A DNA stretch of 64,000 nt from Runella slithyformis DSM 19594. Its GTDB lineage: Bacteria > Bacteroidota > Bacteroidia > Cytophagales > Spirosomataceae. Position 1 is the first letter of the stretch. Every line of letters begins with the position of its first letter. The position numbers and the translations under genes are program-made. A model generated the notes under the pieces. The model was not told the DNA's origin. It was given only the letters and a program-made list of their open reading frames with translations, and did no database searches. The stretch spans positions 1,673,501-1,737,500 of the forward strand of contig NC_015703.1 in assembly GCF_000218895.1 (NCBI RefSeq), given 5' to 3'. Positions 13,912 through 17,445 of the stretch are shown here, piece after piece.

Positions 13912-14751
13912 ATGAAATCATCGCCCGTCTTAAATAGCCTTTTGAGGCTACCGGCCATCGTCAGTTCACGAACTTTCAGGCCGTTTTTGATCCGTAAAAA
14001 TCCGCGATGCACCGCCCCTGCATTATCCGCGTTCTTATTATGTTGTTCAACGGCATACGCCCAATCCGAATACCTCAAAGCCTATCCCGCCCACATCGCA
14101 CGGGTGACCAAAAATGAGATCATTTGGAAAGATTCAACGGTTATGCCTTTTGACGACGGGCAAAGAAAATCATTTGCCCAACTTCTGGAAAACGCTGACC
14201 CGGAAGACCAGTTGGTGCAACGCTACCCTACGTCAGGCGCTCCAAAGCCTCCTTCAGTGAATCAGGACCCGGGGCGTTTTCGTTATGAGCCTTTTTTTCG
14301 AAAGATGTACGGAAATACCGAAGCCGAAGTACGTAAAAACCTGGTCGAGATCATCTGGCTGCCTAACACCCTGAAAAAACCACTTTTGGTCACGAAAATA
14401 AACAACGTTGATAAACAGTTGCAGGCCGTTTCTGACGAATTGGAACGGCATCCCGAACTGTTGAAATACGTCAACGATCCTGCCGGCACCTTTTCGTGGC
14501 GCGTCATCAGCGGCACCAACCGGCTCAGTATGCACAGCTACGGCACCGCCATCGACATCAATCTCAGCCTCTCGCATTATTGGCAATGGGACTGCCATTG
14601 CAAAGATGAAACCCTACCGCTCACCTACCGCAACCTCATCGCCGTCAAGGTGGTAGAAATCTTTGAAAAACACGGCTTTATCTGGGGCGGCAAATGGTAC
14701 CATTACGATACCATGCACTTCGAATACCGGCCCGAATTATTGCTGAAATGA
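13912..14751 (+). CDS. M15 family D-Ala-D-Ala carboxypeptidase-like protein
   Basis: M15 peptidases are zinc enzymes that trim peptidoglycan peptides in the periplasm. The C-terminal third carries the signature: SMHSYGTAIDIN supplies the first His and the Asp ligands, and WYHYDTMHFEYRPEL supplies the final His and the catalytic region. The N-terminus is unusual, with about 35 polar and basic residues before a hydrophobic stretch ending at STAYAQS, which looks like a signal peptide; translation may therefore start further in, though no closer Met fits well. Length 279 aa. It shares a likely transcript with the hydrolase gene 16 bp upstream, suggesting a wall-remodelling pair, although that is inference. 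Confidence 0.85.
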   Translation: MKSSPVLNSLLRLPAIVSSRTFRPFLIRKNPRCTAPALSAFLLCCSTAYAQSEYLKAYPAHIARVTKNEIIWKDSTVMPFDDGQRKSFAQLLENADPEDQLVQRYPTSGAPKPPSVNQDPGRFRYEPFFRKMYGNTEAEVRKNLVEIIWLPNTLKKPLLVTKINNVDKQLQAVSDELERHPELLKYVNDPAGTFSWRVISGTNRLSMHSYGTAIDINLSLSHYWQWDCHCKDETLPLTYRNLIAVKVVEIFEKHGFIWGGKWYHYDTMHFEYRPELLLK

Positions 14752-14781
14752 TTTGACAATGTGAAAGCACAGGGTTCTGAC

Positions 14782-14988
14782 CGCTCGTTGGGATTTGTAA
14801 TCCTTCGCTCGTTGGGATTTGTAATCCCAACGGATACTGACTCAGGATTTGTAATCCATTCATCACTTCGCTCGTTGGGATTTGCAATCCCAACGGATAC
14901 TGACTCAGGATTTATAATCCATTCATCACTTCGCTCGTTGGGATTTGCAATCCCAACGGATACTGAATCAGGATTTATAATCCATTCA
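14782..14988. repeat. Left REP-like palindrome array (63-bp period) beside the RAYT gene
   Basis: Three full copies of a 63-bp unit start at 14806, 14869 and 14932, preceded by a partial copy at 14782. Each unit holds a 21-bp palindrome (GTTGGGATT, 3-nt loop, AATCCCAAC at 14811-14831, 14874-14894 and 14937-14957) and a 13-bp one (GGATT, loop, AATCC at 14845-14857, 14908-14920 and 14971-14983). Loops are TGT, TGC or TAT. The array precedes the transposase gene and shares its GGATT-NNN-AATCC core with the array on the other side. Confidence 0.9.
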
Positions 14989-15055
14989 TAATCATGATAG
15001 AGAAAATAAGCCTGAAGATGACGGTCGCCGGTACAGGTCGTCTAAACGATAAACG

Positions 15056-15598
15056 ATGGGCTTAAAAAATAAAATCAGCGAAGGGCATACGTACTTTTTA
15101 ACTATGACCGTGGTGGATTGGGTAGATGTTTTCACTCGTCCGATGTACAAAACTATTATTATTGACTCTCTTCGATATTGCCAAAAAGAGAAAGGATTGG
15201 AAATATACGCATGGGTATTGATGACCAATCACCTACATTTATTAGCCTCTGCCACAGAGGGATATAATCTTTCAGATATTCTCCGTGATTTTAAGAAATT
15301 TACGTCCAAAAAAATAGTGGAAACAGTCGTCAAAGAAACGGAAAGCCGAAAGCAATGGATGTTGTATCGCTTTAATTATCATGGTTTTTGGCATCCGAAA
15401 AATCAACAGTTTAAATTTTGGCAAGACGGAAATGAAGCGAAAGAGATTCACAGTAATGACTTCCTGTTTCAAAAGCTGCATTACATACACGATAATCCTG
15501 TCAGAGCCGGTATTGTTGAGTTTCCCGAAGAATATCTGTATAGTTCAGCACGCACCTATGTGGGTAAAAAAGGACTGATAGACGTGATTGTTGTGTGA
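15056..15598 (+). CDS. REP-associated tyrosine transposase (RAYT, Y1/HUH family)
   Basis: RAYTs are single-copy, domesticated relatives of IS200/IS605 transposases that nick single-stranded DNA at REP palindromes. The 180-aa protein has the metal-binding HUH pair as NHLHLL (His59, His61) and the nucleophilic tyrosine in KLHYIHDNPVRAG (Tyr143), with the FYGHGFWH-like segment NYHGFWHPKN between them. Length fits the family. The gene is AT-richer than its neighbours and lies between two palindrome arrays with the same core in opposite orientation, as expected for a RAYT with its own REPs. There are no IS-type terminal features or second ORF, so this is not an ordinary IS200 element. All three catalytic residues are intact, so it is probably functional. 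Confidence 0.9.
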   Translation: MGLKNKISEGHTYFLTMTVVDWVDVFTRPMYKTIIIDSLRYCQKEKGLEIYAWVLMTNHLHLLASATEGYNLSDILRDFKKFTSKKIVETVVKETESRKQWMLYRFNYHGFWHPKNQQFKFWQDGNEAKEIHSNDFLFQKLHYIHDNPVRAGIVEFPEEYLYSSARTYVGKKGLIDVIVV

Positions 15599-15604
15599 AT
15601 TTTC

Positions 15605-15752
15605 GGATTATAAATCCTTCTCAGACGGGTTCGGGATTGCAAATCCCGAACAGCATTAGATTACAAATCCCGAACAGCATTAGAGTACAAATCCCGAACA
15701 GCATTAGATTACAAATCCCGAACAGCATTAGATTACAAATCCCGAACAGCGG
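15605..15752. repeat. Right REP-like palindrome array (24-bp period) beside the RAYT gene
   Basis: It begins with GGATT-ATA-AATCC (15605-15617) and a perfect 23-bp palindrome with 10-bp arms GTTCGGGATT/AATCCCGAAC and loop GCA (15629-15651). Four further copies of a 24-bp direct repeat follow; the AAATCCCG motif recurs at 15641, 15665, 15689, 15713 and 15737. Loops ATA, GCA and ACA are the reverse complements of the left-array loops TAT, TGC and TGT, so the array is inverted relative to the left one. Confidence 0.9.
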
Positions 15753-15767
15753 AAAGAGTAATACATC

Positions 15768-15797
15768 ACCCGTCAGGCATTGAAAAACCTGACGGGT
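15768..15797 (-). terminator. Hairpin after pruA
   Basis: ACCCGTCAGG (15768-15777) pairs perfectly with CCTGACGGGT (15788-15797) around a 10-nt loop, extendable by up to three pairs. It lies 17 bp beyond the pruA stop. No T tract follows on the minus strand, so it may equally be a dispersed repeat at the edge of the RAYT locus. Confidence 0.55.
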
Positions 15798-15813
15798 GGT
15801 ATGCGGTATTACC

Positions 15814-17445
15814 CTATTCTAGCGCCAAAAACGGATAGCGATAGTCTACCGGCGAAACAAAGGTTTCTTTGATGGTGCGCGGGGAAACCCAGCGCAACAG
15901 GTTCAGCATCGATCCGGCCTTGTCGTTAGTTCCCGAAGCCCGTGCCCCACCAAACGGCTGCTGACCTACCACGGCACCGGTAGGCTTATCGTTAATGTAA
16001 AAATTTCCGGCGGCGTTCACCAGCTTTTTGCTTGCCTGCTCAATCACGTAGCGGTCTTGAGCAAAAATAGAACCCGTCAGGGCATAAGGAGAGGTTTTGT
16101 CTACGAGTTCGAGTGTTTGTTCGAATTGATCCGGCTCGTATACATAGATGGAAAGCACCGGTCCGAAGATTTCTTCACACATGGTCGTATACATGGGATC
16201 GGTGGTAAGAAGTACGGTAGGCTCGATGAAATAGCCCGTTGATTTATCGTGATTTCCCCCGGCGATGACCGTTACGCGAGGATCCTTTTTGGCATTTTCT
16301 ATATAACCGGCAATTTTATCGAACGACTTTTCGTCAATAACGGCGTTGATAAAATTGGAAAAATCTTCCGTACCGCCCATTTTCATGCTTGCCAGATCAG
16401 CAATCATATACTCTTTCACTTCGTCCCACAGGTTGGACGGAATGTAGGCCCTCGAAGCCGCCGAGCATTTTTGTCCCTGGTACTCAAATGCCCCGCGCAC
16501 CAGTCCCACCGCTACAGCTTTGGCATCGGCCGATGAATGCGCTACCACAAAGTCTTTACCGCCCGTTTCGCCCACGATGCGCGGGAAGGATTTATAAAGT
16601 GACAGATTATCGCCAATGGTTTTCCAAATGTGCTGAAACACCTTTGTGCTTCCTGTAAAGTGAATACCTGCAAAGTCCGGATGACTCAGGATCACATCAC
16701 CGGCTACGGGGCCATCCACGTAAATCAGGTTGATGACGCCATCGGGCACCCCGGCTTCTTTGAATACTTTCATCAATACATTGGCTGCGTACACCTGCGT
16801 GAGGGCAGGTTTCCACACACACACATTCCCCATCAGGGCCGCCGATGCGGGCAGGTTGCCGGCAATAGCCGTAAAGTTGAAAGGCGTCAGCGCAAAGACA
16901 AACCCTTCCAGCGGACGATGCTCCAAACGGTTCCAGACCCCGTCGGACGATTGCGGCTGCTCGCCGTATATCTGAGCAGCATAGTGCACATTAAAACGCA
17001 GAAAATCAATCATTTCGCAAGCTGCGTCAATTTCCGCCTGATAGGCATTTTTAGATTGACCGAGCATGGTGGCGGCGTTGATTTCGGCGCGGTACGGCCC
17101 CGCCAGCAGATCCGCCGCTTTCAGGAAAATAGCCGCGCGGTGTTCCCAACTTAAATCAGCCCATTTTTGTCGCGCCGCCAAGGCCGCCTCAATGGCTTTG
17201 GTCACGTGCGAAGCATCACCCAACGAATAATACCCCAATACGTGTTGATGGTCGTGGGGAGGCGTCACGACATGTTTATCGGCCGTCATGATCTCCTCAC
17301 TGCCGATGTACATCGGTATCTCAATCTGTCTGCTGCGGGCTTCAGTAAGGGCCGCTTTAAGTGCTGCACGTTCGGGCGAATGGGGTGCGTATGATTTGAC
17401 GGGTTCGTTCTTTGGAACGGGTACGTTGAAAAATCCGGTAGCCAT
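15814..17445 (-). CDS. pruA: L-glutamate gamma-semialdehyde (1-pyrroline-5-carboxylate) dehydrogenase
   Basis: This NAD-dependent enzyme oxidises glutamate semialdehyde to glutamate, the second step of proline breakdown. The 543-aa product belongs to the aldehyde dehydrogenase superfamily in its single-enzyme PruA form, without the proline dehydrogenase domain of PutA. It shows the catalytic glutamate in VGETGGKDFVV, the catalytic cysteine in YQGQKCSAASRAYIP, the substrate-binding ALTPFNFTAIAGN segment and the C-terminal INDKPTGAVVGQQPFGGARASGTN. The start MATGFFNVPVP is typical for Bacteroidetes. A proline dehydrogenase gene is not adjacent. It lies 73 bp after a prolyl oligopeptidase gene on the same strand, which would supply proline-containing peptides. 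Confidence 0.95.
   Translation of the reverse strand: MATGFFNVPVPKNEPVKSYAPHSPERAALKAALTEARSRQIEIPMYIGSEEIMTADKHVVTPPHDHQHVLGYYSLGDASHVTKAIEAALAARQKWADLSWEHRAAIFLKAADLLAGPYRAEINAATMLGQSKNAYQAEIDAACEMIDFLRFNVHYAAQIYGEQPQSSDGVWNRLEHRPLEGFVFALTPFNFTAIAGNLPASAALMGNVCVWKPALTQVYAANVLMKVFKEAGVPDGVINLIYVDGPVAGDVILSHPDFAGIHFTGSTKVFQHIWKTIGDNLSLYKSFPRIVGETGGKDFVVAHSSADAKAVAVGLVRGAFEYQGQKCSAASRAYIPSNLWDEVKEYMIADLASMKMGGTEDFSNFINAVIDEKSFDKIAGYIENAKKDPRVTVIAGGNHDKSTGYFIEPTVLLTTDPMYTTMCEEIFGPVLSIYVYEPDQFEQTLELVDKTSPYALTGSIFAQDRYVIEQASKKLVNAAGNFYINDKPTGAVVGQQPFGGARASGTNDKAGSMLNLLRWVSPRTIKETFVSPVDYRYPFLALE

Follow-up and report, generated by a model that had tools for sequence, protein, structure and literature searches.

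The locus that we analysed raises the question of how a RAYT, when the palindromes around it lack GTAG, might recognise hairpins and tell one orientation from the other. It spans positions 14783-15750 of the window (the whole 64-kb stretch of DNA under analysis), shows GCT...AGC as inverted ends and is flanked by the genes for an M15 peptidase and a P5C dehydrogenase. A sequence-only reading had described two mirrored arrays of palindromes around the gene and had taken the loop as the mark that orients them; the observation was partly confirmed and its interpretation partly supported by the computational analyses reported here.

The RAYT gene and its two hairpin arrays

The gene corresponds to an intact open reading frame at 15056-15598 on the plus strand, coding for 180 aa and displaying the motifs NHLH, FWQ and YIHDNP. 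The translated product scored 110.1 bits against the NCBIfam RAYT equivalog NF047646 (cut-off 80) and 36.4 against Pfam Y1_Tnp (cut-off 23). Its AlphaFold model returned a mean pLDDT of 93.6, and the best solved structure retrieved by profile search was E. coli TnpAREP (4er8, E 1.8e-8). As far as its sequence indicates, the gene is a RAYT, a small domesticated transposase of the TnpAREP-like HUH/Y1 type. The residues H59, H61 and Y143, previously described as intact, were all found in the open reading frame and were invariant in an alignment of 25 homologues. In a wider alignment (n = 52) H61 and Y143 were again invariant and H59 was retained in at least 90%, as was S97 of the conserved ESR-x2-W stretch (96-101), in which E96, R98 and W101 were invariant. 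The W and Q of the window RAYT aligned with W94 and Q95 of E. coli TnpAREP, whereas E100, H101 and R104 of the E. coli protein, the reported GTAG contacts, corresponded to A128, K129 and H132 in the profile alignment.

Similar RAYTs have been grouped by Quentin et al. (2018, PMC6006769) in the Bacteroidetes subclass 2.6, listed there as Bertels group 5. The available portions of that paper describe NH[LIV]H and WQ motifs, a median length of 179 aa and flanking hairpins with "atypical secondary structures" devoid of GT[AG]G, further copies of which occur in the genome. The window RAYT resembles subclass 2.6 in its NHLH and WQ motifs, in its length (close to the 179 aa of the subclass) and in its Bacteroidota relatives. 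Its Y motif reads YIHDNP against the YIH[QN]NP of the subclass, with Q, N, D, E and other residues at this position among the relatives. The distinct Bacteroidota REP family proposed by the sequence-only reading is indeed devoid of GTAG, but its kind is not wholly unknown, since that paper already reports such structures. Those structures were found by hand, according to the same portions, whereas the REPs described here are defined by a loop-polarity rule, a stem of 10 bp and the foot tag GYT. Neither the tag nor the rule is mentioned for subclass 2.6 in the available portions of PMC6006769 (supplement aside), PMC8266576, PMC3733652, PMC2817692 and PMC11194056; the last of these places a RayT gene of Chryseobacteria beside another gene, with no hairpins in the account. 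A literature search by title and start of abstract, with most subscription papers beyond its reach, returned no other paper on subclass 2.6.

The window RAYT is present as one copy. The other RAYTs in the same genome have diverged from it, the next relative being 55% identical; at G000:C4:585610-586104 and 2936039-2936341 we observed, in this order, a RAYT matched in two pieces and a remnant interrupted by a stop codon. A plasmid collection contained 10 records with a RAYT relative, none with more than 60% identity.

The left array, on the plus strand, opens with a truncated unit at 14783-14803, made of a GCT tag, a 10-nt arm, a TGT loop and AATCC, and continues with three pairs of hairpins. 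Hairpin 1, in which GCT precedes a 10-bp stem, recurs at 14807-14832, 14870-14895 and 14933-14958 with the loops TGT, TGC and TGC, and hairpin 2, a short stem whose first copy has CTGA before it, at 14845-14857, 14908-14920 and 14971-14983 with the loops TGT, TAT and TAT. The right array, read on the minus strand, comprises hairpin 2 at 15605-15617 (TAT loop), hairpin 1 at 15629-15654 (GCT, 10-bp stem and TGC loop) and four truncated 24-nt units at 15659-15750, each resembling GCTGTTCGGGATTTGTAATC and one bearing a mismatch. Of the five tagged units on the right, four are truncated 24-nt repeats, as is one unit on the left; they are probably by-products of tandem duplication.

Both arrays had been said to share the core GGATT-NNN-AATCC. 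This was verified for all seven left units, whose loops are TGT (three), TGC (two) and TAT (two); on the right, where four units are truncated, only two of the six carry the exact core, three reading AGATT-ACA-AATCC and one AGAGT-ACA-AATCC. The loops themselves were as previously reported on both sides (7/7 and 6/6), those of the right array being ATA, GCA and four times ACA on the forward strand. Within the window the exact core occurs nine times against 0.13 expected, a count that none of 100 shuffles reached. The claim that the loop alone sets the polarity had to be abandoned, as GCT, unpaired and directly 5' of the 10-bp stem in complete hairpins, is the foot of four left and five right hairpin-1 units and provides a second mark. 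The combined pattern GYT-N6-GATT-TRY-AATC matched four times on the plus strand left of the RAYT gene and five times on the minus strand right of it (one of the five mismatched), and more weakly, with TCT, at 15606. Foot tag and loop therefore both carry the mirror arrangement, and this inverted pattern, together with the NF047646 score, supports the flanking of a RAYT by inverted non-GTAG REPs.

Folding of a complete left pair and of the complete right pair as single-stranded DNA gave -12.4 to -12.9 kcal/mol (z about -5), with a 10-bp, 3-nt-loop hairpin right after GCT and a second short hairpin. Two truncated right units, one of them mismatched, returned -1.9 kcal/mol (z -1.35) and were not clearly above shuffles in stability; the right array is therefore made mostly of half-REPs. 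Loop polarity is direct within each window pair, a REPIN being two inverted REPs that move as a unit.

GT[AG]G directly 5' of the stem is absent from the window units, the foot being GCT in every tagged hairpin-1 unit, and they lack the bulge of the E. coli REP as well as its GTAG. Unpaired CGTC is also absent: the units read GCT-CGTT on the left or GCT-GTTC on the right, and those four bases are paired in complete hairpins. The CGTC-tagged REPs are likewise palindromic repeats without GTAG that also occur in Bacteroidetes, but they are said to have no dedicated transposase (Di Nocera et al. 2013, PMC3733652, available portions). The group 3 REPtron of Stenotrophomonas maltophilia shares the perfect short stem and the 3-nt loop, and differs in its GTAG foot and GCT loop, the first G of which is critical, against a GCT foot and a T-first loop here. 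In that GTAG system cleavage was severely impaired and binding largely lost when the loop was reverse-complemented, an experimental precedent for orientation by the loop. The same source (Corneloup et al. 2021, PMC8266576, available portions) describes a hairpin-loop T that is contacted by the transposases of IS608 and ISDra2.

A search of window positions 14500-16000 against Rfam returned no match at gathering scores. The promoter and terminator scan found two terminator-like sites against 1.7 expected, one of which overlaps the outermost right unit. Beyond the right array, at 15767-15798, the hairpin CACCCGTCAGG...CCTGACGGGTG is possibly the terminator between the converging neighbour genes.

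REP copies in the genome and presence in the genus

The genome-wide search suggested by the sequence-only reading returned 63 places for GGATTNNNAATCC, compared with none for the reversed control, and 50 for GGATTTRYAATC compared with 2, and further copies are thus present. Genome stretches around 50 of the 63 GGATTNNNAATCC places yielded a set, not exhaustive, of 88 hairpin places, from which 49 strand views with GYT 10 nt before the loop were obtained. Their loops were T-first only in 31 views, both T-first and A-last in 13 and A-last only in 5 (23, 13 and 5 outside the RAYT locus). For asymmetric loops, tag and loop agreed 31 times and disagreed 5 times (23 vs 5 outside the RAYT locus), counts to be read against a null of 50:50, since a hairpin entered the list only if one or both of its strands had a T-first loop, and in which copies inside one array are not independent. 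Four of the five disagreements fall in a single array (G000:C4:2158544-2159056). The predicted relation between loop and orientation thus extends to the other copies in this genome.

Pairing of the outer stem was then evaluated. Positions -6 to -10 were Watson-Crick paired in 29-32 of 41 distinct tagged copies against 15-16 expected (31 against 26.5 at -8), and positions -11 to -13 were at chance level. As the copies had been picked on the inner 4-5 bp only, the outer pairs were not part of the selection. CTG stands at +15 to +17 in 28 of 47 distinct tagged copies, and some genome copies read GCT-CGTC, paired as well. The copy number is modest, with 17 dispersed tagged clusters among the stretches analysed. 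Frames of at least 150 aa contain 49 of 76 places (20 of 40 tagged), a result uninformative on intergenic position because the repeat periods of 24, 63 and 102, being multiples of 3, can keep frames open.

Other arrangements were observed in the same genome. REPIN-like inverted hairpin pairs, GCT...AGC, occur at G000:C4:639163-639441 (L114; pair 639164/639194) and at G000:C4:1311418, 1669753 and 3689397, with loops mostly TAA/TTA or TGA/TCA, which are T-first on both strands. Locus L106 (G000:C4:3523276-3523714) consists of tandem 102-bp units with three hairpins apiece, in which CTG, GCC or TCT precedes the 10-nt arm, except for the GCT of the last unit.

These data bear on a reading in which the palindromes are double-stranded operator sites, for instance for RAYT autoregulation, and the loop is a mere spacer. 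The near-perfect dyads that adjoin the RAYT gene on both sides would suit such a role, but the outer arms vary and yet stay complementary out to 10 bp, and this compensation disfavours double-strand operators. Moreover, the copies are dispersed far from the RAYT gene and the asymmetric spacer is tied to a tag outside the stem, so that we regard operators as very improbable.

The presence of the locus in related genomes was also evaluated. The M15 gene was found in 11 of 13 genus genomes, own included, and in the stretches compared a P5C dehydrogenase gene lies beside it in four congeners; none of these four has a RAYT match, and the intergenic sequence compared contains no REP core. A dispersed two-pair array near G000:C4:1080.3k was similarly absent from all five congeners alignable on both sides, the test comprising seven congener stretches of which two aligned on one side only. 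At both sites the absence may reflect loss in the congeners. Beside the REP insertion (L116, about 1955-2035, and L291-L295), several palindromes of the TACGAA...TTCGTA type are conserved in five congeners and are perhaps operators.

Presence or absence of the whole locus as a block, together with membership of the HUH/Y1 family, would also be compatible with an ordinary IS200/IS605 insertion sequence carrying subterminal hairpins. However, the window RAYT reached only 28.5 bits against the IS200 equivalog NF033573, under the cut-off of 55, and shows a Y--NP motif and not the Y--Q of IS200 (PMC6006769, available portions). It is also single-copy, with inverted ends and dispersed solo hairpins; IS608 and ISDra2 are true insertion sequences, whereas the window locus combines inverted REP arrays with such solo copies. 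An ordinary insertion sequence is accordingly a poor candidate, with a very small chance of being correct.

Loop polarity and foot tag across Bacteroidota RAYT loci

Of 150 family genomes, 91 yielded a match with an E-value of 0.001 or less. A scan of named genomes gave at least 593 pattern matches; 405 of those listed encode a relative, and the best 80 of the 405 were used, whose record titles, judging by the names, refer to Bacteroidota taxa. The resulting 131 loci (51 from own and family genomes, 80 named) were reduced to 124 distinct loci by dropping 7 duplicates, and hairpins were searched as perfect stems of at least 7, with additional runs at 6 and 8.

Within 350 bp of the gene, hairpins were T-first in 75 cases and A-last in 28 on the left, and T-first in 23 and A-last in 67 on the right (p 4e-11), with 24 and 30 undecided. 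In the distal control, 700-1500 bp off, the same loci showed no polarity bias (7/5 left, 10/6 right). Net polarity could be assigned on both sides in 36 loci, 27 of which were plus on the left and minus on the right, none the reverse and 9 of the same sign; with stems of at least 6 the figures were 37, 2 and 13 of 52 loci. The commonest loops were TGC and TGT, followed by TCT, TCC, TCCT, TTA and TTCA among others, and the stems are wholly different among loci, e.g. GATT/AATC, GTTC/GAAC and GTC/GAC.

The polarity was replicated on held-out loci from a phylum sample in which 44 of 247 genomes matched. Among the 69 places listed, 2 belonged to the own genome; 61 of the other 67 were used (29 + 32), without the 6 that contained stops, matched only in part or ran into a contig end, and removal of 2 duplicates gave 59 new loci. 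Here the counts were 19/9 on the left and 3/25 on the right (p 2e-5), against 2/4 and 1/2 further out, and both-sided loci were 7 plus-minus, 0 reversed and 2 of the same sign. Greedy clustering of all 183 loci at 60% identity (90 clusters) returned 31/9 left and 5/42 right, with 20 plus-minus, 0 minus-plus and 9 same-sign clusters; at 50% identity (19 clusters) the right side remained biased (1:10, p 0.012) and the left side was not significant (7:2, p 0.18). The asymmetric loop is thus supported as a mark of orientation in both sets of loci and in the 60% clusters, but not as the sole mark.

RAYT similarity and hairpin-arm similarity were correlated over 45 loci (r 0.54, 0 of 5000 permutations), to which shared ancestry alone could contribute. 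In the 150 family genomes, the 10 with GGATT-flanked RAYTs contained a median of 18 pattern copies vs 2 in the other 140, a weak contrast because the flanking arrays are counted, some of the others reach 9-15 and the statistic ignores kinship. Stable hairpins between genes and the terminator-like site in the outermost right unit might recommend a role at the RNA level, in which the palindromes would act as terminators or stabilise mRNA 3' ends, would have piled up by tandem duplication and would be unrelated to the RAYT. This suggestion is hardly tenable, because in many loci the polarity of the loop reverses with respect to the direction in which the gene is transcribed, and Rfam gave no match and the arms diverge together with the RAYTs.

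The foot tag was characterised on the same material. In 137 hairpins oriented by the loop, G, Y and T occupied -13 to -11 from the loop with frequencies of 0.60, 0.76 and 0.69; CT stood at the tag position in 56, whereas only 1 had the mirrored dinucleotide 3' of the stem. Across 251 hairpins of the 124 loci, GYT at the 10-nt offset was found 78 times on the gene-oriented strand and 20 times on the other, compared with 4-11 and 4-19 at offsets 7-9 and 11-17; the 20 on the other strand hardly exceed the 19 at offset 8. T-first loops were present in 93 of 98 tagged strand views against 182 of 404 untagged ones, and of the 37 lineage clusters that contained hairpins, 16 had the tag on the gene-oriented strand, compared with 3-5 at control offsets. 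Since discovery and counting of the tag both relied on the 124 loci, only the 59 held-out loci provide a fresh test, and there GYT at the 10-nt offset did not generalise: on the gene-oriented strand 9 of 81 hairpins had it and on the other strand none, offset 7 gave higher counts (18 and 12), and the association of the tag with a T-first loop was not significant (7/9 vs 81/153, p 0.18). The held-out RAYTs are mostly more distant, and other lineages show feet such as CTC/CTT or GCC before the arm. Several of L269-L286, which are more distant Bacteroidota RAYTs, have CTC or CTT adjoining a 10-nt arm on its 5' side, with loops such as TCT, TCC or TCCC. Guide pairing of the tag gave no prediction of the cleavage site: the motif on the 3' side varies with the lineage (CTGA here; GAGC, GAGAAG and GGTGTC elsewhere) and by eye did not track GCT vs GTT.

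Proposed recognition of the hairpins

On these grounds we consider it likely that the locus is a Bacteroidota REPtron in which the RAYT acts on single-stranded hairpins oriented by the first T of the loop and by the foot tag. In this reading, a RAYT resembling subclass 2.6 lies between two inverted arrays of its own REPs, and related REPs are scattered over the genome. The full REP consists of a 10-bp stem, a 3-nt loop and an unpaired GCT directly 5', often with CTG(A) and a shorter second hairpin downstream. This anatomy and the dispersal of copies are computed results, as are the covarying outer stem, the two concordant polarity marks in this genome, the reversal of loop polarity across RAYT genes and the presence or absence at two sites. 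We infer that the RAYT would bind the hairpin as single-stranded DNA, that it might read the 5' T of the loop, by analogy with the loop T contacted in IS608 and ISDra2, and that the foot tag would take over the place that GTAG has in other REPs. Cleavage would take place nearby, perhaps at a conserved CT, and would copy or move the REPs, so that their spread would be driven by the RAYT.

More tentatively, and with somewhat less than an even chance in our estimate, a stem-independent code might operate Bacteroidota-wide, made of the loop 5' T, a measured distance of about 10 nt and a foot tag that differs between lineages (GYT here, CTY/GCC elsewhere) and would replace GTAG as guide. If such an orientation code is true, the stem could change its sequence freely as the enzyme evolves, and from a new foot tag one would predict a new site of cleavage.

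Recognition of REPs by non-GTAG RAYTs is left open in the available portions of the cited papers. The finding that hairpins of Bacteroidota RAYTs tend to keep a T-first loop even where their stems differ hints at the way in which these enzymes may locate their targets. Should the code hold, it would provide a rule to find and orient Bacteroidota REPs, with a testable prediction on binding and cleavage, and would link REPs to the ends of IS200/IS605 elements, where a loop T is contacted too.
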